NCBI GenBank assembly: GCA_017513245.1
Contig: JAFXGK010000007.1
Location: 62,001-126,000 of the forward strand
Source of the DNA: Clostridia bacterium
GTDB taxonomy: Bacteria; Bacillota; Clostridia; Oscillospirales; Acutalibacteraceae
Direction of reading: 5' to 3'
Length of the DNA: 64,000 bases
In this document: piece after piece, positions 1 to 51,509 of the stretch
Layout: each line of letters opens with the position of its first letter
Numbering within the stretch: the stretch's first letter is position 1
Translations under genes and position numbers: made by a program
Notes under the pieces: model-generated
The model's input: the letters and a program-made list of their open reading frames with translations, nothing else
What the model was told of the DNA's origin: nothing
The model's database searches: none

Positions 1-615
1 ATAAAAGTACAGTCCGTCCTCGCCGCCGAAGAGCGCCGTGTGCGGCTCAAAAAGCACCTCTTTTTCGAGTGACGCCATTTCATCGGGGCGAATATAGGGA
101 GGATTGCTTACGATAACGTCGTATTTTCCTTCACCCGGAAGCTCGATATCGCCCTGGCGTGGCCTCACTCGAGAACGGTTTAGTTCAATGTTTCGCTCAA
201 GGTAGGAATAGGCTTCGGGATATTTTTCGAGCGCCTCAACCCTCGCGTTTTTGCAGTTTTTATCTATCGCGACGGCAACGCAGCCGCTACCTGAACACAG
301 GTCGATAACCTTAAGTTCTCGCTCCCCGATAAACTCGATTGCCGTATCACAAAGATGCTCGGTATCAGGCCGCGGAATAAGCACGCCGGGGCCGACGTAA
401 AAGGGTAGGGAATAGAACTCCCATATGCCGAGGACGTACTGAAGCGGCTCGCCCGAAAGCCGTCGCTCTACAAGCTCCGACAGTTCGAGAAAATCGACCT
501 CTTCCATATCGTCCTTTAAATATTCTATAAGCTGGGCGGCTTCAAACCGCGCCGAGGCTATGCCCGCCTCGTGCAGTTTTTTGGCCGTTCTTTTAAAGGC
601 CTCGTGTCCGTTCAT
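1..615 (-). CDS. prmC: Peptide chain release factor N5-glutamine methyltransferase (PrmC/HemK), C-terminus cut by window edge
   Basis: PrmC methylates the glutamine of the GGQ motif in release factors RF1 and RF2, using S-adenosylmethionine in the cytoplasm. The first 205 codons are visible and the rest lies left of base 1. The diagnostic NPPY substrate-binding motif is encoded near 90-105 on the minus strand (read as VSNPPYI). The start ATG (615-613) overlaps the stop of the DUF1385 gene in an ATGA, so the two are translationally coupled. A DUF1385 gene directly before prmC is a common Firmicutes order. The identification is firm; only the C-terminal part is unseen. Confidence 0.93.
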   Translation of the reverse strand, partial: MNGHEAFKRTAKKLHEAGIASARFEAAQLIEYLKDDMEEVDFLELSELVERRLSGEPLQYVLGIWEFYSLPFYVGPGVLIPRPDTEHLCDTAIEFIGERELKVIDLCSGSGCVAVAIDKNCKNARVEALEKYPEAYSYLERNIELNRSRVRPRQGDIELPGEGKYDVIVSNPPYIRPDEMASLEKEVLFEPHTALFGGEDGLYFY

Positions 616-5240: not shown

Positions 5241-5550
5241 CTCCTCTGTTCATACACCCCTCTGAACGATGATGGCTGTTGCTCTTGACTCAACGCAGCC
5301 GGTCGTTCAGGTGTTTCCCTTTGTTATTGGCTTTTGAGTGGTCAAGCGGAGCTTGGCGAGGGGAATAAAGAGAGCAAGATAAAGGCAAAATTTAATAAAA
5401 CCACTCCGCATTTCACGCCGCAGGTCGCCGTGCGACCGAGCAGAAATGCGAGTTTTATCATACTTTACCTGCGAACTAAGGGGGCGATCGAAAAGCCCCC
5501 TTCCCACAGCATTTCTTTGTAACTTTCTTCATGCCTGAAGAAAGTTAGTC
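5241..5550. repeat. Partial copy (C) of a structured interspersed repeat; no gene here
   Basis: This intergenic stretch matches the right-hand part of the two repeats at 34118-34626 and 35473-35981, beginning at the segment with ACACCCCTCTGAACGA and ending with the AACTTTCTTCA / TGAAGAAAGTT hairpin near 5521-5546. The AAGGGGGC / GCCCCCTT stem and the CGCATTTC / GAAATGCG stem are also kept. The left-hand part of the element is missing. Open frames across it reproduce frames in the other copies but have no plausible protein features, so I treat it as non-coding repeat DNA. Bases 5135-5240 are AT-rich with no gene seen. Confidence 0.85.
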
Positions 5551-24541: not shown

Positions 24542-25381
24542 ATGAAAAAAAGCGGACTCGGAAGAGGTCTTGATTCCCTTTTTAACCAAAATAATACAGA
24601 TTCCGACAGCATTCTCGAGGTGCGCCTCACCGAGATTGAGCCTAATAAAAATCAGCCGCGCCGTGATTTTGACGAGCAGTCGATAGCCGAACTGGCCGAC
24701 AGCATTCGTGAGCACGGACTGCTGCAGCCGATACTGGTTCGCCCCACCGAAAGCGGAACCTACCAGATAATCGCGGGCGAACGCCGTTGGCGCGCAAGCC
24801 GACTGGCCGAGCTTACCACCGTGCCGGTAATTATAAAGAATATGGACGATCGTAAAACGATGGAGGTTTCGATTATCGAAAACCTTCAGCGAGAGGATTT
24901 AAACCCCGTTGAAGAGGCTTTGGGATTTAAATCGCTTATAGATACATACGGTCTTACGCAGGAGGAGGCCGCGGGACGCGTAGGCAAATCGCGCAGCGCA
25001 ATTGCAAACGCACTTCGCCTCTTGGCGCTCGACGACGATTCGCTTGCCGCGCTCCGCGAGGGTTCGATAACAACCGGCCATGCAAAGGCGCTCCTTTCTG
25101 CACCTGCCGAGCGCAGAGCAGGTCTTTTGGCCCTGGCCCGACAGGGCGCTTCGGTTCGCCAGATAGAGGGCCTTGCAAAAATGACCGAAAAGCCGAAGAA
25201 GGCAACCCAGCTTCGTAAGGATAAATATTATAGCGAAGTGGAAATTGCGCTTAAAAATGCATTACACCGTCCCGTAAAGATTTCGGTTTCCGAAAACGGA
25301 AAGGGAACCCTTACGGTTGAGTTTTATAACAACGATGAGCTTACCAATCTGGCACATCGTATAGCAGGAGAAAAATGGTAA
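24542..25381 (+). CDS. parB: Chromosome-partitioning protein ParB (Spo0J)
   Basis: A CTP-dependent DNA clamp of 279 residues. The N-terminal GLGRGLDSLF is the ParA-stimulating peptide. The CTP-binding pocket shows GERRWRA and ENLQREDLNPVEEA. The parS-reading helix-turn-helix spans about 138-165 (LTQEEAAGRVGKSRSAIANAL). The C-terminal dimerisation part ends EFYNNDELTNLAHRI. Two parS sites lie at 17845 and 23694. A terminator follows directly. Confidence 0.97.
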   Translation: MKKSGLGRGLDSLFNQNNTDSDSILEVRLTEIEPNKNQPRRDFDEQSIAELADSIREHGLLQPILVRPTESGTYQIIAGERRWRASRLAELTTVPVIIKNMDDRKTMEVSIIENLQREDLNPVEEALGFKSLIDTYGLTQEEAAGRVGKSRSAIANALRLLALDDDSLAALREGSITTGHAKALLSAPAERRAGLLALARQGASVRQIEGLAKMTEKPKKATQLRKDKYYSEVEIALKNALHRPVKISVSENGKGTLTVEFYNNDELTNLAHRIAGEKW

Positions 25382-25382
25382 A

Positions 25383-25414
25383 AAAGAAGGGCTATATAGG
25401 CCCTTCTTTTTTGT
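25383..25414 (+). terminator. Terminator of parAB
   Basis: AAGAAGGGC (25385-25393) pairs with GCCCTTCTT (25401-25409), followed by a run of T. It starts right after the parB stop. Confidence 0.9.
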
Positions 25415-25666
25415 TACAAATTACGAATAAATTTTTTCTCCTGAGGTTTACATAATGTATTTCAAAAAGTTATTATTTTGTGGGAAGTAGTTAAACTTAT
25501 TAACCGAGTTATTAACACTTTTGCAGTGAAAAACGCGATTAAATCGTTTGAGAACCCCTTAAAAAGTGGAAATGTTAGTGGAAAAGTTGAATTATTTTTT
25601 AGGTTATTATAATTTACATAACAACATTTTTTGGTGCGAAAAAGGTTAATTTTTTGTTATTTTTGT
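25415..25666. other. AT-rich gap without a gene
   Basis: No open frame with a ribosome site is visible. There are loose DnaA-box-like words (GTTATTAACAC near 25510, TTTTCCACT on the minus strand near 25580) but no perfect box and no cluster comparable to 9036-9213. Confidence 0.5.
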
Positions 25667-25702
25667 AATAAAAAAAGATCCGCAGAATATTTCTGCGGAT
25701 CG
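25667..25702 (-). terminator. Terminator of the gene at 25712-26464
   Basis: GATCCGCAGAA (25677-25687) pairs with TTCTGCGGATC (25691-25701). On the minus strand it is followed by seven T residues. Confidence 0.9.
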
Positions 25703-25711
25703 ACTAAAATT

Positions 25712-26464
25712 TTATGCATCCAGACCGTATATTTCGCGTAAGAAGCGGTCCTTTCTTGTGCGCATGGCAATGTGGCGAACGGGCTTTTTAAGATAGGGGA
25801 AATCCTCAAGTCCTTCGAGCATGGCGGCGGTTTTTACCGGGTCGCCCTTAATGGCGCCGCCGAGGATAACAACGATAACGGTGTTGCCGACGTTGCGGTC
25901 ACCGCGAACGTAAAGGTCGTTTAAGGAATCGTAAATCTTCTTAAGCTTTTTCTTATTGTTTTCCTCAAGCAGCTGGGCGATTTCCTTTGCTGCGGTCTCG
26001 AGGAAGAAGTTTATGTAGAGGAATTCGCCATCCTCTGCCATACGCTCCTTATAAAGGTCCTTATATGCAGGGAAGATAGCAAGAATTTTGTTGCAGAGCT
26101 CGCCTATGTCTGCGGTATCGCCGCCGCTCTTCTGGGGGAGAGAAATATCGTTTGCACGACGGGACTTTCGGGGATTGATACCTAAAAGGGAGGTTACGGT
26201 ATCGTTAAAGTCGATACCAACCGCTACAGCGTCACTTTCGCGCTGGGTAGAGTCGAAGAGGTAGCAGGCGGCAACAGAATAGGAGCCAACCTCGCCTGCG
26301 GTAACCTCTGCGGTAAGCAGGTTAAAGAGTTCGCGGCTCTCGTCATATTCAACCTTTACGGCGCGGCTGTCGTTTGTGAAGACACCGTCCTTTTCGGTAT
26401 AACCGTTATCGGTAAGTGTGGGACGAATCTCGCCCAAAACTGCATCTATAATTTTCTGTTCCAT
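25712..26464 (-). CDS. Conserved hypothetical protein, 250 residues
   Basis: I do not recognise this family. It has no signal peptide or membrane segment and looks like a soluble cytoplasmic protein with an alpha/beta N-terminal part (1-80) and a mostly helical C-terminal part (115-250) rich in Lys and Glu, for example LLEENNKKKLKKIYDSLNDL. The region NVGNTVIVVILGGAIKGD is a hydrophobic strand-turn. It is monocistronic, with its own terminator, and is divergent from rsmA. Codon use matches its neighbours, so it is a genuine gene of the host. Confidence 0.75.
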   Translation of the reverse strand: MEQKIIDAVLGEIRPTLTDNGYTEKDGVFTNDSRAVKVEYDESRELFNLLTAEVTAGEVGSYSVAACYLFDSTQRESDAVAVGIDFNDTVTSLLGINPRKSRRANDISLPQKSGGDTADIGELCNKILAIFPAYKDLYKERMAEDGEFLYINFFLETAAKEIAQLLEENNKKKLKKIYDSLNDLYVRGDRNVGNTVIVVILGGAIKGDPVKTAAMLEGLEDFPYLKKPVRHIAMRTRKDRFLREIYGLDA

Positions 26465-26553
26465 TTTATATACTCCTGTGATTATAATACAGGGTAATTA
26501 TATCACAAGTTTATGGCGAAAGCAATAAAGGAAGAGAAAAAAGTTATTGTCGC

Positions 26554-26582
26554 TTGTAAAAGAGGGTAAAATGTGATATCAT
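26554..26582 (+). promoter_or_regulatory. Promoter of rsmA
   Basis: TTGTAA (26554-26559), 17-base spacer, TATCAT (26577-26582), 25 bases before the rsmA start. Confidence 0.65.
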
Positions 26583-26607
26583 ACTTTGAGTAAAAGGGGT
26601 GAGCAAA

Positions 26608-27468
26608 GTGGAGCTTGCAAACGCTGCAACCGTCAAAAAGCTGATGGGAAACGACGTTTTCTTTAAAAAAAGTCTGGGACAAAACTTTATAATCGATAAT
26701 ACCGTCTGCCCCCGTATGGCCGAGGCGGTAGCGGATAAGGATACCGGCGTGCTCGAAATAGGCCCCGGCATCGGCGTTCTGACGCGTGAGCTCGGCGCCG
26801 TTGCAAAACGGGTGGTTACGGTTGAACTCGACCGAAGCCTTGAGCCTATCCTTGCGCAGACGCTTTGTGACCTCGAAAACGTTAAGGTGATTTTCGGCGA
26901 TGCGATGAAGCTCGACCTTCACGCCCTCATAGCCGAGAACTTTGCCGACTGCAGCCGCGTCTCGGTTTGTGCGAACCTACCTTATTATATAACCTCCCCC
27001 ATTATTATGAAGCTGCTCGAAAGCCGCCTGCCGATTGAAAAAATCGTGGTTATGGTCCAGAAGGAGGCCGCCGAGCGTCTGTGCGCCGAGGTGTCATCCC
27101 GTGAGGCCGGCGCGGTTACCGTTGCGGTAAACTACTATGCCGAAGGCGAGATTCTTTTCGGTGTAGGACGGGACAGTTTTATGCCTCCGCCCAAGGTTGA
27201 CAGCGCCGTAATCAGTCTTTCGGTGCGTAAGCAGCCGCCCGTGGCGGTGCCCGACGAGGACAAGTTCTTTGCCCTTATAAAGGCCTGCTTCGCCCAGCGG
27301 AGAAAGACACTGCTTAACACCGTTTCTTCCACGCTCCATATAGAAAAAAGCGCCCTTGCCGAGTGCTTAAACGAGCTTTCCCTGCCCGAAACTGTTCGCG
27401 CAGAAAAGCTAACGATGGAGCAGCTCGCCGCACTTTCACAATTGCTACACGAAAAACAAATATATTAA
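26608..27468 (+). CDS. rsmA: 16S rRNA dimethyladenosine transferase RsmA (KsgA)
   Basis: A methyltransferase of 286 residues that dimethylates two adjacent adenines in helix 45 of 16S rRNA during small-subunit maturation. It shows KSLGQNFIID (21-30), SAM motif I LEIGPGIGVLTREL (49-62) and the catalytic NLPYYITSPI (123-132). The C-terminal domain has CFAQRRKTLLNTV. The GTG at 26608 lies 5 bases after GGTGA; a GTG at 26599 is possible but inside the ribosome site. Confidence 0.96.
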   Translation: MELANAATVKKLMGNDVFFKKSLGQNFIIDNTVCPRMAEAVADKDTGVLEIGPGIGVLTRELGAVAKRVVTVELDRSLEPILAQTLCDLENVKVIFGDAMKLDLHALIAENFADCSRVSVCANLPYYITSPIIMKLLESRLPIEKIVVMVQKEAAERLCAEVSSREAGAVTVAVNYYAEGEILFGVGRDSFMPPPKVDSAVISLSVRKQPPVAVPDEDKFFALIKACFAQRRKTLLNTVSSTLHIEKSALAECLNELSLPETVRAEKLTMEQLAALSQLLHEKQIY

Positions 27469-34084: not shown

Positions 34085-34115
34085 CAAAGCCTTCCAGTTT
34101 TTTGGAAGGCTTTTA
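34085..34115. terminator. Terminator after DUF1846 gene; left border of repeat A
   Basis: AAGCCTTCC pairs with GGAAGGCTT, followed by TTT. The same stem type (AAGCC...GGCTT) borders every full repeat copy: 34629-34658, 35438-35470 and 35980-36010. Confidence 0.88.
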
Positions 34116-34117
34116 TA

Positions 34118-34626
34118 TTTTCATTTAGTTTTTATAAACTACCGCTCACGCCGCGGGGGCGTTTCCTTTCTCGTTGCGCGGAGAAAGGAAACAAAGACGC
34201 GCTAAGGGGGTTTCGATCCCCCCTCGCTCAGGAAGGAATAGTCTTTTTGAAAGCATTTCGGCGAAACGTCTTTCGCCGAAATAAACCTTTTTAACGCAGA
34301 CACCTTTTTTCTCCCCTCGCACACCCCTGAACGACGAAGGCTGTCGCCCTCGACCCACCATAGCCGGTCGTCCGGGTGGTTTCCTTTATTATTAGTTTTT
34401 GAGTGGTCAAGCGGAGCTTGGCGAAGGGGATAAAGAGAGCAAGATAAAAGCAAAATGACAATAAAAGTGTTCCGCATTTCACGCCGCAGGTCGCCGTGCG
34501 ACCGAGCAGAAATGCGAATGTTATCGTGCTTTTCCTGCGAACTAAGGGGGCGATCGAAAAGCCCCCTTACCACAGCATTTCTTTGTAACTTTCTTCATGC
34601 TTGAAGAAAGTTAGCCCACATTAAAA
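34118..34626. repeat. Structured interspersed repeat, full copy A
   Basis: About 510 bases, nearly identical to 35473-35981. It contains at least seven stems: 12 bp GTTTCCTTTCTC/GAGAAAGGAAAC (34161-34172, 34181-34192); AGGGGG/CCCCCT (34205-34224); 12 bp ATTTCGGCGAAA/TTTCGCCGAAAT with a 4-base loop (34255-34282); CAAGC/GCTTG (34408-34420); CGCATTTC/GAAATGCG enclosing GGTCG/CGACC (34473-34516); AAGGGGGC/GCCCCCTT (34544-34568); and 11 bp AACTTTCTTCA/TGAAGAAAGTT (34587-34612). Open frames inside lack protein features and ribosome sites. No transposase is present. Confidence 0.93.
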
Positions 34627-34628
34627 CT

Positions 34629-34658
34629 AAAAGCCCTCCCATTGTTGGGAAGGCTTTT
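34629..34658 (-). terminator. Terminator of the SLOG gene; right border of repeat A
   Basis: AGCCCTCCC pairs with the GGGAAGGCTT arm, with T-rich flanks on either side. It serves the minus-strand gene ending at 34657. Confidence 0.8.
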
Positions 34659-35085
34659 AAATATTAATTACTATTTTGTTTTTCTTTTCAGCTATTTCTT
34701 TATATTTTGCCGCTCCGCCAAAAACAGTTTTAACGTGTGTTATTACGTAGTCGGACTTTTCTATCATTAGCCGATTTCGCTTGTCGATTGCAAAACGCGG
34801 AGGAGTGTTTTTTGGCAGAGAAAAATAAACGGTATCAGAAAAATCAATGACGTCAGATTTGGTTTTTTCAGATGGCAAATATGCCAAAACGACATAGTAT
34901 TTAATGTGGGTGTGCGTTTCCTTTAAGTCTTTTAAAATGCTCCTCACGAGGAAATCAAAACGGCCGTTGTTGCCAACGTAAAAAAGCGTCACGTTTTTAT
35001 TGATAATTAAGTCAGTAATTATATTGCGCAACTCCGTTTCAATTTCGGCCTCTGTGTTTCTGTGACCAAAAAACGTGCAGACCAA
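34657..35085 (-). CDS. SLOG-domain protein (DUF1273/YpsA-like)
   Basis: A 142-residue Rossmann-like SLOG protein: CTFFGHRNT at the start, VTLFYVGNNGRFDFLVRSIL, a variable loop, then PPRFAIDKRNRLMIEKSDYV and GGAAKYKEIAEKKNKIVINI. SLOG proteins are thought to bind or process nucleotide-derived ligands; some act in biological conflict systems. TTG at 35085 follows GGGGTGG. A longer in-frame reading to 35478 would run over the control region and the divergent gene and is rejected. It is divergent from an XRE regulator, and both sit between two copies of the structured repeat. Its role here is unknown. Confidence 0.8.
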   Translation of the reverse strand: MVCTFFGHRNTEAEIETELRNIITDLIINKNVTLFYVGNNGRFDFLVRSILKDLKETHTHIKYYVVLAYLPSEKTKSDVIDFSDTVYFSLPKNTPPRFAIDKRNRLMIEKSDYVITHVKTVFGGAAKYKEIAEKKNKIVINI

Positions 35086-35100
35086 GTAACCACCCCAAAG

Positions 35101-35174
35101 TTGACCAGTATAGCGGTCAATATTTTGTTTCAGTATAGCATACAATACCAATAGTTGCAACCAATACTGGTCAA
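35101..35174. promoter_or_regulatory. Divergent control region with inverted and direct repeats (operator)
   Basis: TTGACCAGTAT (35101-35111) and ATACTGGTCAA (35164-35174) are exact inverted repeats at the two ends of the gap. A local inverted repeat TTGACC/GGTCAA spans 35101-35120. CAGTATAGC occurs twice (35106-35114, 35131-35139). On the minus strand TTGCAA (35155-35160), 17 bases and TATACT (35132-35137) make a good promoter for the SLOG gene, which the repeats overlap. The XRE protein encoded next to it is the obvious binder. Confidence 0.75.
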
Positions 35175-35195
35175 AACCGTTGGAGAGGTGTCTTG

Positions 35196-35435
35196 ATGGA
35201 ACAAAAAATAAGACGCGATTTGAATATGGGCGATAACCTTCGCCGCCTTCGTTATGCGGCAGGTCTTTCGCAAGAAAAGCTGTGTGCAGAACTGCAGCGA
35301 CAAGGCTGCGATATTGGAAGAACAACCTATGCGAAATATGAAAGCGGAGAGCTGAATATTCGTGCAAGTGTTCTTGTAAAACTAAAGAAAATTTATAATT
35401 GCTCTTTTGATGATTTCTTTTTAGATTTGGATTAA
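35196..35435 (+). CDS. XRE-family helix-turn-helix regulator
   Basis: A 79-residue single-domain regulator. The helix-turn-helix covers about residues 12-66: NLRRLRYAAGLSQEKLCAEL, then IGRTTYAKYESGELNIRASV, the usual Cro/CI-type motif. A short acidic tail FFLDLD follows. ATG at 35196 is 5 bases after GGAGAGGTG; a TTG at 35193 is an alternative. It probably represses itself and the divergent SLOG gene through the inverted repeats between them. Confidence 0.88.
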   Translation: MEQKIRRDLNMGDNLRRLRYAAGLSQEKLCAELQRQGCDIGRTTYAKYESGELNIRASVLVKLKKIYNCSFDDFFLDLD

Positions 35436-35437
35436 AA

Positions 35438-35470
35438 GTAAAAGCCTTCCCGTTTTTGGGAGGGCTTTCT
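35438..35470 (+). terminator. Terminator of the XRE gene; left border of repeat B
   Basis: AAAGCCTTCCC pairs with GGGAGGGCTTT just after the XRE stop. Confidence 0.85.
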
Positions 35471-35472
35471 GT

Positions 35473-35981
35473 TTTCATTTAGTTTTTATAAACTACCGCT
35501 CACGCCGCGGGGGCGTTTCCTTTCTCGTTGCGCGGAGAAAGGAAACAAAGACGCGCTAAGGGGGTTTCGATCCCCCCTCGCTCGGGAAGGAAAAGTCTTT
35601 TGGAAAACATTTCGGCGAAACGTCTTTCGCCGAAATAAACCTTTTTAACGCAGACGTCTTTTTTCTCCCCTCGCACACCCCTGAACGACGAAGGCTGTCG
35701 CCCTCGACCCACCATAGCCGGTCGTTCGGGTGGTTTCCTTTATTATTGGCTTTTGAGCGGTCAAGCGGAGCTTGGCGAAGGGGATAAAGAGAGCAAGATA
35801 AAGGAAAGCGGCAATAAAAACACTCCGCATTTCACGCCGCAGGCCGCCGTGCGACCGAGCAGAAATGCGAATGTTATCGTGCTTTTCCTGCGAACTAAGG
35901 GGGCGATCGAAAAGCCCCCTTCCCCCAGCATTTCTTTGTAACTTTCTTCATGCTTGAAGAAAGTTAGCCTACATTAAAATT
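35473..35981. repeat. Structured interspersed repeat, full copy B
   Basis: A direct repeat of 34118-34626 in the same orientation, with scattered single-base changes and small differences near 35810-35825. All long stems seen in copy A are preserved. The changes I can see fall mostly in loops and linkers, except one in the inner GGTCG stem (GGCCG here). Confidence 0.93.
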
Positions 35982-36012
35982 AAAAGCCCTCCCGATTGGG
36001 AAGGCTTTTGTT
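35980..36012 (-). terminator. Terminator at the end of the long minus-strand operon; right border of repeat B
   Basis: AAAGCCCTCCC pairs with the GGGAAGGCTTTT arm and lies directly after the stop of the DUF815 gene at 36013. Confidence 0.8.
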
Positions 36013-37227: not shown

Positions 37228-38883
37228 TTAGTTAAGGATTGCGCCGGTGGCGCCACTCGAAACGGCGGCAGCGTAGCGCTTTAAGTATCCCGAAAGAGGC
37301 TTCAGTTTAGGAACGAAATTCTTCATTCTCTCGGCATATTCCTCGTCGGAAATCTTTATTTCAAGACGGTTTTCGGGGATATCAATGCTTATGATATCAC
37401 CCTCGCGAACGATGCCGATGGGACCGCCGCTTGCAGCCTCGGGCGAAACGTGACCGATAGAGGCGCCGCGGGTTGCGCCGCTGAAGCGACCGTCGGTAAT
37501 GAGGGCAACGCTCTCGCCAAGTCCCATACCCATAATTGCCGAGGTGGGATTAAGCATCTCGCGCATACCGGGACCGCCCTTCGGACCCTCGTAACGGATA
37601 ACAACAACGTCGCCGGGGTTGATAAGACCTGCGTTTATAGCGGCCTGAGCCTCTTCCTCGCTTTCAAATACGCGGGCGGGACCCTCGTGGCGAAGCATCT
37701 TTTCGCTTACTGCGCTGCGCTTAACAACACAGCCGTCGGGAGCGAGGTTGCCGCGAAGCACGGCAATACCGCCGGTTTCGCTGAAGGGGTTATCAATAGG
37801 GCGAATAACGTTGTGGTCGAGGTTGATTGCGCCCGCGATGTTTTCAGCTACGGTCTTGCCGGTTGCGGTTATGCAGTCGGTATTAAGCAGACCCTTTTTA
37901 TTAAGCTCGTTCATAACGGCGTAAACACCGCCGGCCTCGTCAAGCTCCTCCATATAGGTGCGACCTGCAGGTGCAAGGTGGCAGAGGTTAGGCGTCTTGG
38001 AGCTGATTTCGTTTGCAATGTCGAGGTTTATATCAATCTCGCATTCGTGAGCGATAGCGGGCAGGTGGAGCATGCTGTTGGTCGAACAGCCGAGCGCCAT
38101 ATCAACCGTAAGGGCATTCATAAATGCCTTTTCGGTCATAATATCGCGCGGACGGATATTCTTCTCCCACAGCTCCATAACCTTCATACCTGCGTGCTTT
38201 GCAAGCTCGATTCGAGCCGAATAAACAGCCGGAATGGTGCCGTTTCCGCGAAGGCCCATACCGAGAACCTCGGTAAGGCAGTTCATGGAGTTGGCGGTGT
38301 ACATGCCCGAGCAGGAACCGCAGGTGGGGCAGGACTTGCACTCGTATTCGGTAAGCTTTTTTTCGGTGCACTTGCCTGCGGAATAAGCGCCAACCGCCTC
38401 GAACATCGAGGAAAGGCTGGTCTTGTGACCGTCAACATGGCCTGCCATCATCGGGCCGCCGCTTACAAAAATGGTGGGAATATTAAGGCGTGCTGCAGCC
38501 ATTAAAAGGCCGGGCACGTTTTTATCACAGTTGGGAATCATAACAAGGGCGTCAAAGCCGTGCGCGCGAACCATAGCCTCGGTCGAATCGGCAATAAGGT
38601 CGCGAGTTATGAGCGAATATTTCATTCCCTCGTGACCCATAGCGATACCGTCGCAAACGGCAATGGCAGGGAACACGATGGGGGTACCGCCTGCCATGGC
38701 AACACCAAGGCGAACGGCTTCGGTAATCTTGTCGATGTTCATGTGTCCCGGAACGATTTCGTTATAGGAGCTGACGATACCGATAAGGGGACGGTCGAGT
38801 TCCTCCTTGGTCATTCCGAGAGCATGATAAAGTGCGCGGTGAGGAGCGTTTCCTGCGCCGTGCTTTATAGCGTCACTTTTCAT
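37228..38883 (-). CDS. ilvD: Dihydroxy-acid dehydratase
   Basis: An iron-sulfur dehydratase of 551 residues that converts 2,3-dihydroxy-isovalerate and -methylvalerate to the keto acids for valine, leucine and isoleucine. Cluster ligands and signatures are visible: [38 protein letters not shown] and [20 protein letters not shown]. It starts [20 protein letters not shown] with AAAGGAAC upstream. It is the last biosynthetic gene of the T-box-controlled operon. Confidence 0.98.
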
Positions 38884-38949
38884 ATAAAAGTTCCTTTCAA
38901 AAGGCGGTTATGGGGAAGACCCGAAAGAGCCTTCCCCGAATTATAATTA

Positions 38950-39975
<1,026 letters not shown>

Positions 39976-39988
39976 TTACCTCTTTCGT

Positions 39989-40495
39989 TTATATAATTGT
40001 TACCTTGCGGATGGTTGTGTCGCCGCGTTCGAGCGAAACAACACCTGTTCGGCAGATTTCAAGAATTTCGAAATCATCCATAAGACGGATGAAATCATCG
40101 ATGCGACGGCTTTCGTCGGTCATCTGGAGCATAATGGAATCGCGGCTGTAGTCAACCGTCTTCACGTGGAAGGCCTCGGCGGCTGCGCGAATTTCGGGGT
40201 ACTGCTCGGGCGAGTTTTTAACCTTTATGAGCATAAGCTCGCGGCTTACCGAGGTTTCACCCTCGATTTCCTTTACCGAGCAAACGTCGGGCAGCTTGTA
40301 AAGCTGGTTTACGAGCTGGTCCTTTGCGTTCTTTTCGCCCTCGAACTGAACGGTAATTCGCGAAAGCTCGATAGACTCGGTTTCACTAACCGTTAAGCTG
40401 TTAATATTGAACTGGCGGCGACGGAACATGCTGGTTACGCGGTTAAGCACACCAAACTGGTTTCGAACCAGAACTGCTACTGTGTATCTCTGCAT
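39989..40495 (-). CDS. ilvN: Acetolactate synthase small (regulatory) subunit
   Basis: A 168-residue regulatory partner of IlvB. The N-terminal ACT domain (MQRYTVAVLVRNQFGVLNRV, then FNINSLTVSETE) is the valine-feedback site in this family, and a second ferredoxin-like domain follows. ATG at 40495 is chosen because GGTGG lies about 9 bases before it; a GTG at 40504 would overlap ilvB by 8 bases. Confidence 0.96.
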   Translation of the reverse strand: MQRYTVAVLVRNQFGVLNRVTSMFRRRQFNINSLTVSETESIELSRITVQFEGEKNAKDQLVNQLYKLPDVCSVKEIEGETSVSRELMLIKVKNSPEQYPEIRAAAEAFHVKTVDYSRDSIMLQMTDESRRIDDFIRLMDDFEILEICRTGVVSLERGDTTIRKVTII

Positions 40496-40496
40496 A

Positions 40497-42164
40497 TCAG
40501 TCACCCACCTTTACAATCATATCGTCCATACTGCCGCCGGGCGGTAACATGGGAAGAACAAATTCGTCCTTGTCAATCATACATTCAACAAGGTAAGGAC
40601 CGTCGGCCGCGAAGGCGTTAAGCAGCGCCTTATCGAGTTCCTCTACCGTAGTAGCGGTCTCGCCGTGGGCGCCGAAGGCCTCGGCAAGTTTTACGAAGTT
40701 TGTCTTGCGGTCGAGCACGGTCTGCGAATAGTGTTTATCAAAGAAAAGGGTCTGCCACTGGCGAACCATTCCGAGAACGCCGTTATTAAGCAGTAAAATT
40801 ACTACGGGGCAGTTTTGTGAAACTGCGGTTGCAAGCTCCTGCAGACACATACCGAAGCTGCCGTCACCCGTAACGAGAACGGTTTTCTCGCCGGTTGCTA
40901 TCTGCGCGCCGATTGCGGCGCCGAGACCGAAGCCCATCGTGCCCAGACCGCCGCTCGAAATAAATCTGCGGGGATTCTTAAGGCTTATGTTCTGCGCGGT
41001 CCACATCTGATGCTGGCCAACGTCGGTAGCAACGGGAGTGTTGTACTTTAAGTGGCGGTTAAGCGTTAAAATTGCGTTTCGCGGTGTCATTCCGGCGCGG
41101 TTGTCGAGGGTGTCCTTCTCCTCTATTCGCCAGCGGGCAATCTTTTTCTGCCAGTCGGGCTTTTGGCCGCCCGAGAGTTTGGGTATCAGCTTTTCGAGCG
41201 TGAGCTTAATATCGCCGCGAAGGCCAACGTTGGCCGAAACGGTTTTGGAAAGCTCGGCGCCGTCGATATCGATATGTACGATTTTTGCGCGTGTTGCAAA
41301 TTTTTCGCGGTTGCCCGTAACTCGGTCGTTAAAGCGAACACCGAGCGCGATTATACAGTCGGCGTTGTGCATTGCGGTCGAGGAAGCGTAGTGTCCGTGC
41401 ATACCCTGCATTCCGAGGAAGCGGGGATGGTCGGTCGGAACGCCCGAAAGACCCATCATCGAACAGCCGATGGGGGCATCAAGCTTCTCTGCGAGGGCTA
41501 AAAGCTCCTCTTTTGCGCCGCTCGCAAGCAGACCGCCGCCGAAGTAGATAAAGGGCTGCTTCGAATCGTTGATAACTGCGGCTGCCTGGTCGATGCGCTT
41601 ATCTCTTGCCGCGTGGGGCGCTTCGGGAACGACGCGCTCGGCAGGGGTGTATTCGTATTTTGCAATCTGGATATCTTTGGGGATATCAATAAGTACGGGG
41701 CCGGGTCTGCCCGAGAGGGCGAGCTTAAAGGCCTCGCGTACGGTATCGGCCAAATCTTCAATTCGGCCAACGAAGTAGTTGTGTTTGGTAATCGGCAGGG
41801 TAATACCGGTAATATCTATTTCCTGAAAACTATCGGTACCGATTTGTGAACTGGGAACGTTGCCCGTAATGGCAACCATCGGAACAGAATCGAGGTATGC
41901 CGTTGCGATTCCCGTTACCAGGTTGGTCGCGCCCGGACCCGACGTTGCGATAACAACGCCGACCTCGCCGGTTGCGCGAGCGTAGCCGTCGGCGGCGTGA
42001 GCCGCACCCTGCTCGTGCGCTGTAAGCACGTGATTTAATTTGTCGCGATACTTATAAAGCGAATCGTAAACATTGAGTATCTGACCGCCGGGATATCCGA
42101 AAACGGTTTTACATCCCTGCTCAATCAGAGTTTCAACCAAAATGTCTGCGCCTGATAAGAGCAT
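40497..42164 (-). CDS. ilvB: Acetolactate synthase large (catalytic) subunit
   Basis: A thiamine-diphosphate enzyme of 555 residues that condenses pyruvate with pyruvate or 2-oxobutyrate. The catalytic glutamate sits in TAHEQGAAHAADGYARATG (about 50). The thiamine-diphosphate motif is GDGSFGMCLQELATAVSQN with LLLNNGVLGM following. Its regulatory subunit overlaps or abuts downstream. The second substrate, 2-oxobutyrate, would come from IlvA of the same operon. Confidence 0.98.
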   Translation of the reverse strand: MLLSGADILVETLIEQGCKTVFGYPGGQILNVYDSLYKYRDKLNHVLTAHEQGAAHAADGYARATGEVGVVIATSGPGATNLVTGIATAYLDSVPMVAITGNVPSSQIGTDSFQEIDITGITLPITKHNYFVGRIEDLADTVREAFKLALSGRPGPVLIDIPKDIQIAKYEYTPAERVVPEAPHAARDKRIDQAAAVINDSKQPFIYFGGGLLASGAKEELLALAEKLDAPIGCSMMGLSGVPTDHPRFLGMQGMHGHYASSTAMHNADCIIALGVRFNDRVTGNREKFATRAKIVHIDIDGAELSKTVSANVGLRGDIKLTLEKLIPKLSGGQKPDWQKKIARWRIEEKDTLDNRAGMTPRNAILTLNRHLKYNTPVATDVGQHQMWTAQNISLKNPRRFISSGGLGTMGFGLGAAIGAQIATGEKTVLVTGDGSFGMCLQELATAVSQNCPVVILLLNNGVLGMVRQWQTLFFDKHYSQTVLDRKTNFVKLAEAFGAHGETATTVEELDKALLNAFAADGPYLVECMIDKDEFVLPMLPPGGSMDDMIVKVGD

Positions 42165-51348: not shown

Positions 51349-51361
51349 TACACCATAAATT

Positions 51362-51454
51362 GCAGAGTAGATATGCGAGCGTAAAGTGCTTTTCGGACGG
51401 GGAGTTGCCGAAAAGACGAAGGTTTTCCGCGGTTCGCTTATCGCATCCCGCTGC
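51362..51454 (+). promoter_or_regulatory. Tetrahydrofolate (THF-I) riboswitch
   Basis: The leader carries the conserved THF aptamer words in order: P1 GCAG/CTGC, AGAGTAGAT, GCGTAAAGTG, GGGGAGT, GACGAAGG, CCGCGGT and CGCATCCCG. Downstream, AACTTCCTAT (51465-51474) can pair with ATAGGAGGTT (51494-51503) and hide the AGGAGG ribosome site of the next gene. CCGAAA (51454-51459) can pair with TTTCGG (51476-51481) as an alternative. This suggests translational repression when folate is plentiful. The gene product is a folate-type transporter component, which agrees. Confidence 0.92.
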
Positions 51455-51509
51455 CGAAAAAGGAAACTTCCTATATTTCGGACTATGTCGGGAATAGGAG
51501 GTTATTTTT

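Follow-up and report, generated by a model that had tools for sequence, protein, structure and literature searches.

The window, the whole 64-kb stretch of DNA analysed here, contains two intergenic copies of an element of ~510 bp, each flanked by convergent genes (Table 1). Copies 1 and 2 are alignable end to end and are 94–95% identical (blastn), with a mean column identity of 95% and ungapped blocks of 300 nt and 194 nt at 93% identity. This confirms the pair of near-identical repeats described in an earlier sequence-only reading, which had overlooked a third, truncated copy. Counting stems of at least 8 perfect pairs with loops of 3–14 nt, copy 1 plus its borders has five (12, 12, 12, 11 and 9 bp, the 11-bp stem being the left terminator) and copy 2 has four; 200 dinucleotide shuffles of copy 1 average 0.18 such stems and never exceed 2. 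The seven or more perfect stems originally claimed would require shorter ones. Differences between the two copies do fall mostly outside the stems, as had been noticed, affecting 1 of 90 stem positions and 19 of the 365 other positions compared, and the folding z-scores are −10.0 for the + strand and −10.3 for the − strand. Neither of the two ORFs tested inside copy 1 matches a Pfam family, in agreement with the absence of a credible protein. The AAGCC..GGCTT hairpins are real at all four borders, and the pattern occurs at five sites in the 1.7-Mb draft genome, four of which are the borders of copies 1 and 2.

Table 1. Positions of the element copies, their end modules and their hairpins in the 64-kb window
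Feature	Position	Strand	Source
Copy 1	34118..34640		
T1, bidirectional terminator-like hairpin, 11-bp stem, copy 1 left border	34086..34113	.	
Short terminal inverted repeat TTTAGTTTTTAT, left end of copy 1	34124..34135	+	read in sequence
H0, small GC hairpin ACGCC-GCGGG-GGCGT, left end of copy 1	34148..34162	.	sequence, hairpin scan
Left S2 hairpin, copy 1, 12 bp, purine arm GAGAAAGGAAAC	34161..34192	− (predicted functional strand, outward)	detector, covariance model
Left linker AAAGA, mirror of purine-arm AGAAA; outward UCUUU is the predicted third strand	34193..34197	−	arm-linker comparison
Left S1 pseudoknot strand CGCGC, partner loop GCGCG at 34176–34180	34198..34202	−	detector
Internal hairpin, perfect 12 bp, copy 1	34255..34282	.	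stem scan
Internal hairpin, 9 bp, TAAGGGGGC/GCCCCCTTA, copy 1 right half	34543..34569	.	stem scan
Right S1 strand AGCAT, partner ATGCT at 34597–34601 (pseudoknot), copy 1	34574..34578	+	detector, covariance model
Right linker, outward UUCUUUG, predicted parallel third strand on purine-arm AAGAAA	34579..34585	+	arm-linker comparison
Right S2 hairpin, copy 1, 12 bp	34586..34613	+ (outward)	detector, covariance model
T2, bidirectional terminator-like hairpin, copy 1 right border	34627..34660	.	
Copy 2	35472..35993	+	sequence alignment, blastn
T3, terminator-like hairpin, copy 2 left border	35441..35468	.	
Copy 2 left module: S2 35515–35546, linker 35547–35551, S1 strand 35552–35556	35515..35556	−	detector, covariance model
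Copy 2 right module: S1 strand 35927–35931, third strand 35932–35938, S2 35939–35966	35927..35966	+	
T4, terminator-like hairpin, copy 2 right border	35982..36009	.	
Copy 3, only right half of element, truncated, 88% identical	5255..5548	+	sequence alignment
Copy 3 right module: S1 strand 5508–5512 (one mismatch), third strand 5513–5519, S2 5520–5547	5508..5547	+	

At either end of a full copy lies a module, the two being inverted relative to each other. In each module, the loop of a 12-bp hairpin (S2) pairs with a segment past a purine linker (S1) in a pseudoknot. The earlier statement that the repeats have no long terminal inverted repeats is therefore misleading, since the two ends carry the same structural module in inverted orientation, plus a short terminal inverted repeat (TTTAGTTTTTAT on the left of copy 1, with ATTAAAACTAAA as its right-end partner). 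With a detector that implements this definition, the window gives exactly five modules, and 10 mononucleotide-shuffled windows give none. The five include the inward-facing pairs 34161+/34613− and 35515+/35966−, and copy 3 retains one end; the loop pairs with the downstream segment over 5 nt in four modules and over 4 nt in copy 3. The same five modules are the top five window matches of a covariance model (R1) trained on 42 modules, all outside this genome, with E values of 3.9e-5 to 1e-3 and all on the outward strand, the best match elsewhere in the window having an E value of 0.8.

Among 106 distinct loops, 41 pair over at least 5 nt with the downstream segment (mean 6.1 and maximum 15 in 1000 shuffles). 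In the 42 modules, pairing cells amount to 89.1% versus 79.7 ± 1.0% in shuffles and at most 59.5% in slid controls, and double-change cells number 79 versus 37.6 ± 4.3, neither value being reached in 500 shuffles. At each of the five S1 pairs, both partners vary. Paired cells make up only 64.8% of S1, and no excess over shuffles appears in two of the five covariation measures. At the level of sequence, these comparisons demonstrate covariation of the pseudoknot and the architecture of the module, and covariation of the structure, which the sequence-only reading suggested looking for in the stems, is present in the wider family.

The types of mismatch differ between the strands. In the three outer S2 pairs of 179 modules, C·A/A·C versus G·T/T·G mismatches number 51 versus 0 at the outermost pair, and 1 versus 2 and 5 versus 1 at the others. 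In the S1 pseudoknot the numbers are 15 versus 3, with 24 of the 42 single mismatches being of neither type, and at the loop-closing position G·T/T·G exceed A·C by 4 to 1. This bias indicates that the folded strand is the one reading outward from the element, and we infer that the molecule which folds is RNA, not single-stranded DNA.

The linker mirrors the purine arm of the hairpin and is not a direct repeat of it, a rule with which 60 of the 61 linkers scored in linker-free scans comply. Arms with 3, 4, 4 and 5 A residues after the G are accompanied by linkers with 3, 4, 4 and 5 A residues before the G in 30 of 30, 16 of 16, 5 of 6 and 9 of 9 cases, respectively. Over 22 arm types, the summed match is 153 to the reversed arm and 138 to the arm itself (maximum of 5000 permutations, 136); the mirror reading is better in 12 types and the direct one in 2 (L152 and L047), the others being equal. 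The corresponding numbers for 47 distinct arm-linker pairs are 19 and 9, others again being equal. The module samples were gathered with patterns that fix the hairpin arms, the broadest of which also fixes CAAAGA. A direct repeat is thus disfavoured by the arm-type comparison and the linker-free scans. Both window ends satisfy the mirror rule (AAAGA/AGAAA on the left, AAAGAA/AAGAAA on the right), the longest match at the right end having the same length for the mirror and the direct reading.

A linker that mirrors the purine arm is the hallmark of a pyrimidine third strand running parallel in a major-groove triple helix, and from this rule we predict triplex formation in the end modules. A 7-nt loop across a 12-bp stem would be a tight fit, and C+·G-C triples require protonation. 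In telomerase RNA, the third strand of the pseudoknot also lies in L1. The ENEs of MALAT1 and PAN are triple-helix elements at the 3′ ends of RNAs, and the U·A-U triples predicted here would likewise lie near the 3′ end of the element's RNA. Unlike an ENE, the element is bacterial, and has an H-type pseudoknot with its third strand in L1 and with both ends in inverted order. An ENE has also been reported in the RNA of a plant retrotransposon (PMC12501189).

Further copies, which the sequence-only reading proposed searching for, are present in the same genome, in other genera and in other phyla. The dispersed elements extend from the lineage of the window itself as far as Burkholderiales and phage contigs, with inward module pairs 401–667 bp apart in Burkholderiales, Pseudomonas and others. 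Modules within 3 kb of each other form 25 such inward pairs versus 4 outward and 4 tandem arrangements; across 120 loci with 132 modules, 82 modules are without an inward partner according to the detector, and 23 loci are without a qualifying module. High-copy genomes carry 276 (one Burkholderia genome), 111 and 65 modules, and the reversed control gives 0 in all 11 genomes.

In a family scan, the left-end motif has 82 matches in 11 of 200 genomes (5 matches in 4 genomes for the reversed control pattern). By inspection, those in eight genomes are real (this genome, G000, and G011, G166, G102, G212, G105, G064 and G181, in the last of which later module and model scans recovered the second element end). 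The matches in G138, G016 and G136 look like chance coding matches, and all four motif matches in viral contigs are chance coding; the phage and plasmid collections searched with the window element gave no match. Plain blastn with the window element hits 1 of 60 relatives, its own genome only, and 18 of 398 family genomes at E ≤ 0.01; the loci inspected in other genomes comprise three real ones (L011, L014 and L016) and one chance match (L013). On 19 motif or blastn loci, model R1 gives E < 0.01 in L055, L046, L035 and L011, weak matches in L014 and L043 (0.55), 0.09 at the chance locus L036 and nothing in the other 12. The model misses the elements of G011 and G166 and some of G102, which were assigned to the family by eye, and therefore does not span the family. 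A hairpin scan matched 36 of 394 order genomes, a total left out of our counts because many of these matches are other hairpins.

In draft genomes, contig ends are a frequent location of copies, as might be expected if these were a chance or assembly repeat or the decayed remains of the ends of a known insertion sequence. We consider such an origin very unlikely, since other copies lie inside complete replicons, the same ends recur across many genera and the shuffle and reversed-pattern module controls are empty. Furthermore, the IS30-like and IS66-like genes found with the element (families named by eye) interrupt it, in two copies, rather than ending where it does.

At threshold, Rfam contains no match for the element in the window, RF02421 included; the Rfam matches elsewhere in the window are a THF riboswitch and a tRNA. 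On ten other loci, only RF02421 was found, exceeding the gathering score in one, the Caballeronia element, where it matches both ends on the outward strand with 48.6 and 43.3 bits (gathering score 44). The model begins in the S2 purine arm and runs through H0 and the terminal repeat of that element: RF02421 (Bp1_684), the Burkholderia sRNA Bp1_Cand684_SIPHT, is the outer end of such an element. According to the available part of its description, this sRNA was detected by RT-PCR and has matches in several phyla with unrelated flanking genes (PMC3521395). The model covers the outer part of one end only, and neither it nor that part of the description includes the pseudoknot, the third strand, the inverted partner or the repeat nature. 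Searches of open-access PMC literature and of Rfam yielded no description of the element beyond this end fragment filed as an sRNA, and it is apparently an undescribed, widespread bacterial intergenic DNA element of about 0.5 kb. GOLLD, ROOL, OLE and HEARO are large structured bacterial RNAs of several hundred nt encoded in intergenic regions. The element resembles them in its length, high degree of structure and intergenic location; unlike them, it has inverted-end symmetry and dispersed copies, and Rfam gives no match to any of them in the window.

The convergent genes and bidirectional terminators around both window copies, the concentration of four of the genome's five such hairpins at their borders and the existence of the RF02421 transcript would all fit a two-way 3′-end cassette that serves the host, in which triplex pseudoknot and terminator end and protect RNA and insulate convergent genes, spread being incidental. 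We regard this as unlikely. Neighbour orientation is not conserved around 25 module pairs (6 are (+,−), 13 co-directional, 1 (−,+) and 5 with one side missing, by crude ORF calls), up to 276 modules per genome and a patchy presence exceed the needs of insulation, the Caballeronia ends are A-rich outward and not U-rich, and insertion sequences interrupt two copies. No protein family is shared by the neighbours, the largest accounting for 3 of 118 scanned proteins (of 168 prepared).

MITEs and REPIN/BIME repeats are short, non-coding and intergenic, with inverted ends and many copies, and the element is like them in each respect. Unlike MITEs, it shows no target duplication (0 of 20 C. fortuita elements have an exact duplication of at least 4 nt near the estimated border), and no cognate transposase ends were found; unlike both MITEs and REPINs, its ends are ~50-nt pseudoknot modules common to several phyla. 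A search for an autonomous copy between distant ends gave two candidates, both of which are insertions into the element. REPINs are inverted hairpin pairs moved in trans, and REPs are defined by short palindromes tagged with GTAG/CGTC. This organisation would also be expected of a REPIN-like element mobilised by a Y1 (RAYT) transposase, and a same-genus genome (G002) has a Y1 transposase gene (Y1_Tnp) at the syntenic site instead of the element. However, Y1_Tnp (PF01797) has no match in 7 of 19 genomes, including this one (92% complete) and the high-copy G011 and G166, which largely refutes RAYT as the mover, and such tagged palindromes are not seen in the element ends, making this origin extremely improbable.

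Four of five P. caribensis sites are common to three strains, suggesting that movement is slow. P. phymatum is without the element at the two sites examined, with flanks that are not cleanly joined, and so provides no clean empty site. One P. caribensis strain carries the stretch flanked by two copies in the orientation opposite to that in two other strains, indicating that copies recombine. Intramolecular DNA triplexes need mirror repeats. Such repeats, the strong fold on both strands and the inversion could all reflect action at the DNA level. In a mechanism resembling ssDNA transposition, outward single strands, or H-DNA in the duplex, would fold into the pseudoknot or triplex and serve as substrates for a recombinase or for a replication or repair enzyme. 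This explanation seems improbable to us, as the one-strand mismatch bias fits a folded single strand and not a duplex, and ordinary homologous recombination accounts for the inversion.

We therefore lean towards widespread, ~0.5-kb non-coding intergenic elements with no enzyme of their own, which have inverted, predicted triplex-pseudoknot ends and spread within genomes. Such elements are probably non-autonomous and mobile, and their ends probably encode a structured strand. Among the options first offered (structured RNA, non-autonomous mobile element, or recombination or termination module), the first two thus merge into one, partly supported reading. Each module on the outward strand would fold into an H-type pseudoknot, in which a segment inside the element pairs with the hairpin loop (S1, ~4–6 bp), a pyrimidine and a purine arm form S2 (~11–14 bp), and a 5–9-nt pyrimidine loop (UUUCUUU type) occupies the major groove of S2, parallel to the purine arm, presumably through U·A-U and C+·G-C triples. 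Because the ends are inverted, a strand or transcript that traverses the element, whichever way it runs, would end with a pseudoknot, followed by the terminator hairpin in the window or by the A-rich stretch that lies outward of the end in the Caballeronia and Paraburkholderia elements inspected. The structure may protect or tag the 3′ end, and a trans-acting enzyme may copy the elements that carry it. A bolder version, which we put forward only tentatively, is that these are pan-bacterial selfish RNA elements reverse-transcribed in trans, a bacterial counterpart of SINEs: whichever strand it was read from, the RNA would finish with a triple-helix pseudoknot (plus an A-rich tail in some hosts), and a host or mobile reverse transcriptase would copy it back into DNA. 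The A-rich outward ends are only a hint of such RNA copying.

These dispersed elements, with more than 100 modules in some genomes, have one common end structure that is open to experimental test. If the triple helix forms, bacteria would have a natural RNA (or DNA) triplex of wide occurrence, which follows a simple mirror rule that is testable by mutation. The element would recast RF02421, an sRNA family of unknown role, and its ends offer a marker for finding the enzyme that copies it. It also helps to account for breaks between contigs in draft assemblies and for an inversion specific to one strain.

The two near-identical intergenic repeats of ~510 bp described in the sequence-only reading were confirmed in the window, whose source genome is a 1.7-Mb draft in 51 contigs, and the search it proposed for further copies in its own and related genomes yielded a third copy and repeats in other genera (table below). 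Copy 1 with its borders contains five perfect stems of at least 8 bp (12, 12, 12, 11 and 9 bp; mean of 200 shuffles 0.18), and each strand of a copy folds ~10 standard deviations better than shuffles. As had been claimed, differences between copies 1 and 2 lie mostly outside the stems (1/90 stem positions, 19/365 elsewhere), and the two ORFs tested within copy 1 have no Pfam match, in agreement with the absence of a credible protein. The AAGCC...GGCTT terminators reported at both borders are present for copies 1 and 2, as AAAGCCYTCC..GGRAGGCTTT hairpins on either side, a pattern with a single further occurrence in the genome. Between the two copies lie a hypothetical gene and a Cro/C1-type HTH gene, and the outer neighbours are genes for a DUF1846 protein and a DUF815 ATPase.

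Coordinates of the repeat copies and associated features (L numbers are sequence loci)
Feature	Location	Description
Copy 1 of the ~510-bp intergenic repeat	window 34118-34640	94-95% identical to copy 2
Copy 2 of the ~510-bp intergenic repeat	window 35472-35993	94-95% identical to copy 1
Copy 3, truncated	window 5255-5548	88% identical
Branched-chain amino acid synthesis genes	window 37228-42164	ilvD-, ilvC-, ilvN- and ilvB-like by eye; adjoin the repeat region
THF riboswitch (RF01831)	window 51361-51455	86.5 bits
Small derivative	G000:C9:30665-30690 (-), L004 1450-1560	end-like hairpin and linker fused to an element-middle fragment (26 identical bases); looks as if formed via internal deletion
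Y1 (RAYT-like) transposase gene	L325 about 866-1363 (G002:C44)	in a same-genus genome, with GTAGGGCAGGGGCTTGCTCCTGCCG hairpins, at the gap occupied by the two repeats in the window
RF02421 matches, Caballeronia element	L066 6058-6175 and 6713-6820	
Segment between two elements, P. caribensis MBA4	L249 about 24800-27400	inverted relative to two other strains (L247, L248)

Read inward, the end module has four parts: a small GC hairpin, H0 (window form ACGCC-GCGGG-GGCGT); a second hairpin, H1 (stem S2), whose 11-14 bp join a pyrimidine 5' arm to a purine 3' arm; a linker of purines; and a stretch complementary to the loop of H1. This loop pairing (S1) was not imposed by the search pattern, in which the loop and downstream sequence were unconstrained; a pairing run of at least 5 nt occurs in 41/106 distinct loops (1000 shuffles: mean 6.1, maximum 15). 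In a set of 42 ungapped modules each of the five S1 pairs shows changes on both sides, paired cells reach 89.1% versus 79.7 +- 1.0% in shuffles (64.8% for S1 by itself, at most 59.5% for slid partners as a control), and 79 cells are changed on both sides versus 37.6 +- 4.3. In these modules neither the count of pairs with changes on both sides nor the number of pair types exceeds shuffles. A detector that relies solely on stem length, linker motif and loop pairing reports exactly five modules for the window and zero for ten shuffled windows. A covariance model built from the 42 outside modules ranks these five at the top, every one on the outward strand, followed by their hairpins on the opposite strand, the best match elsewhere in the window having an E of 0.8; the model misses some elements otherwise assigned to the family.

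The linker reads as the purine arm reversed: arm AAAGAAAAAG is found with linker AAAAAGAAA, AAGAAAAAG with AAAAAGAA, and GAGAAAGG (window left) with AAAGA. Summed over 22 arm types, the match totals 153 for the reversed arm and 138 for the arm as it stands, and 5000 permutations never exceed 136. To test this rule, viral contigs were scanned with four arm types and the linker left unconstrained. Wherever a C-A..A-G-A..A linker was present, the A run before its G was compared with that after the arm G; the two were equal in 30/30 cases for the canonical arm and in 16/16, 5/6 and 9/9 for the other three. Among the 292 hairpin sides read, 218 were without this linker and 13 had a linker lacking G; because both sides of every hairpin were read, most sides are not expected to be modules. 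On the outward strand the linker is predicted to form a run of pyrimidines that lies parallel to the purine arm, U facing A and C facing G, an arrangement like that of a pyrimidine-motif major-groove triplex. The predicted placement is also that of telomerase RNA, which has its third strand in L1 of an H-type pseudoknot. A weak point of the triple-helix reading is the tight loop geometry it predicts. In the related genome G181, arm AGAGAAAG with outward loop TCTCTTTC again gives the predicted third strand, and loop pairing is not evident there.

Mismatch types favour the outward strand as the probable folded strand, since C.A and A.C, which are G.U or G.T wobbles on that strand, outnumber G.T and T.G at the outermost S2 pair and in S1. 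Counted over 179 modules, the three outer S2 pairs give 51 versus 0, 1 versus 2 and 5 versus 1, and the single internal mismatches of S1 (n=42) comprise 15 C.A/A.C-type, 3 G.T/T.G-type and 24 of other kinds; at the loop-closing position there is 1 versus 4. RF02421 (Bp1_684), catalogued as an sRNA of Burkholderia, is the repeat family's outer end at either side: in the Caballeronia element it matches both ends, reading along the outward strand from the purine arm of S2 towards the outside, one end above the gathering score and the other just below. The source paper describes the candidate as detected by RT-PCR, which does not prove strand, and sequenced, with oligo(dT)-primed cDNA, and as matching several phyla with unrelated neighbours (PMC3521395). 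The wobble pairs fit both single-stranded DNA and RNA as the folded molecule, and RNA is the more likely because of the sRNA evidence.

Searches with the motif of the left end uncovered repeats in further genera of the family; 11/200 genomes matched, 8 of them real by inspection (reversed control: 5 matches in 4 genomes). These repeats share the plan of the window copies and have a different hairpin sequence; matches number 19, 29, 21 and 4 in the related genomes G011, G166, G212 and G102, many at contig ends. By eye, the G011 elements (L040, L048, L058, L061) look like mosaics, internal parts of one appearing reverse-complemented in another, and their flanks carry additional short repeats. 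A pattern for the commonest hairpin form matched at least 120 stretches in GTDB genomes and 33 in IMG/VR. Among the GTDB matches listed are Burkholderiales, Pseudomonas, Lysobacter, Pasteurellaceae, Quinella, Selenomonas, Clostridia, Bacteroidota, a Spirochaetota and Desulfuromonadales; several from Bacteroidota, Clostridia and Bacilli are weak, and those with a pseudoknot run of at least 5 nt include Pseudomonadota, Quinella, other Selenomonadales and the Spirochaetota and Desulfuromonas records. The stricter detector finds a module in 97/120 of the listed loci, 132 modules in all, of which 82 are unpaired and the others form 25 inward pairs at spacings of 401-667 bp; within 3 kb, 26 arrangements point inward (one of them at 2807 bp), 4 point outward and 2+2 are tandem. 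With the exact pattern, a Burkholderia genome has 276 modules, Caballeronia fortuita 111, C. glathei 65 and eight others 1-18 (reversed control: 0 in all 11), and Paraburkholderia and Caballeronia megaplasmids hold at least 333 places across 18 records.

Together, the repeat is most likely a dispersed, non-autonomous element, its ends serving on the outward strand as recognition and 3'-end structures; with inverted ends, each strand would end in an identical pseudoknot. Its copy number, patchy distribution and partial copies, and the absence of linked genes, lead us to infer that an enzyme acting in trans copies it. No copying enzyme was found, and no protein family is common to the 118 flanking proteins scanned (largest, 3/118). 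The 40 ends of 20 C. fortuita elements resemble one another until ~57-66 nt outside H1, beyond which they diverge; their outermost outward part is A-rich (57% versus 32% further out), and no exact target duplication of at least 4 nt was seen at these 20. Turnover is slow, which, with the many single modules, is among the weak points of the mobile-element reading. Four of five P. caribensis element sites are common to three strains, and the fifth is in two strains, at the synteny end with the third (MBA4). Orthologous elements there are 76-95% identical, the lowest pair 85% if read inverted; 10/16 of the 400-bp flanks are at 92-100% identity and 6/16 align poorly because of indels or rearrangement. 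Two element copies are interrupted by IS30- and IS66-like genes (families by eye), and the genomes compared offered no clean empty site. We class the element as a new kind because of its shared triple-helix pseudoknot ends; Rfam and the open-access PMC literature held no description beyond RF02421, and an earlier account elsewhere is possible.

REPIN-like movement by a Y1 transposase is unlikely, since 7/19 genomes examined are without the gene, including the window's genome and two high-copy genomes. In the same-genus genome G002, the syntenic gap lacks the element and has a Y1 transposase gene and different terminators instead, and this gap, shared with the window, suggests an insertion-prone site.
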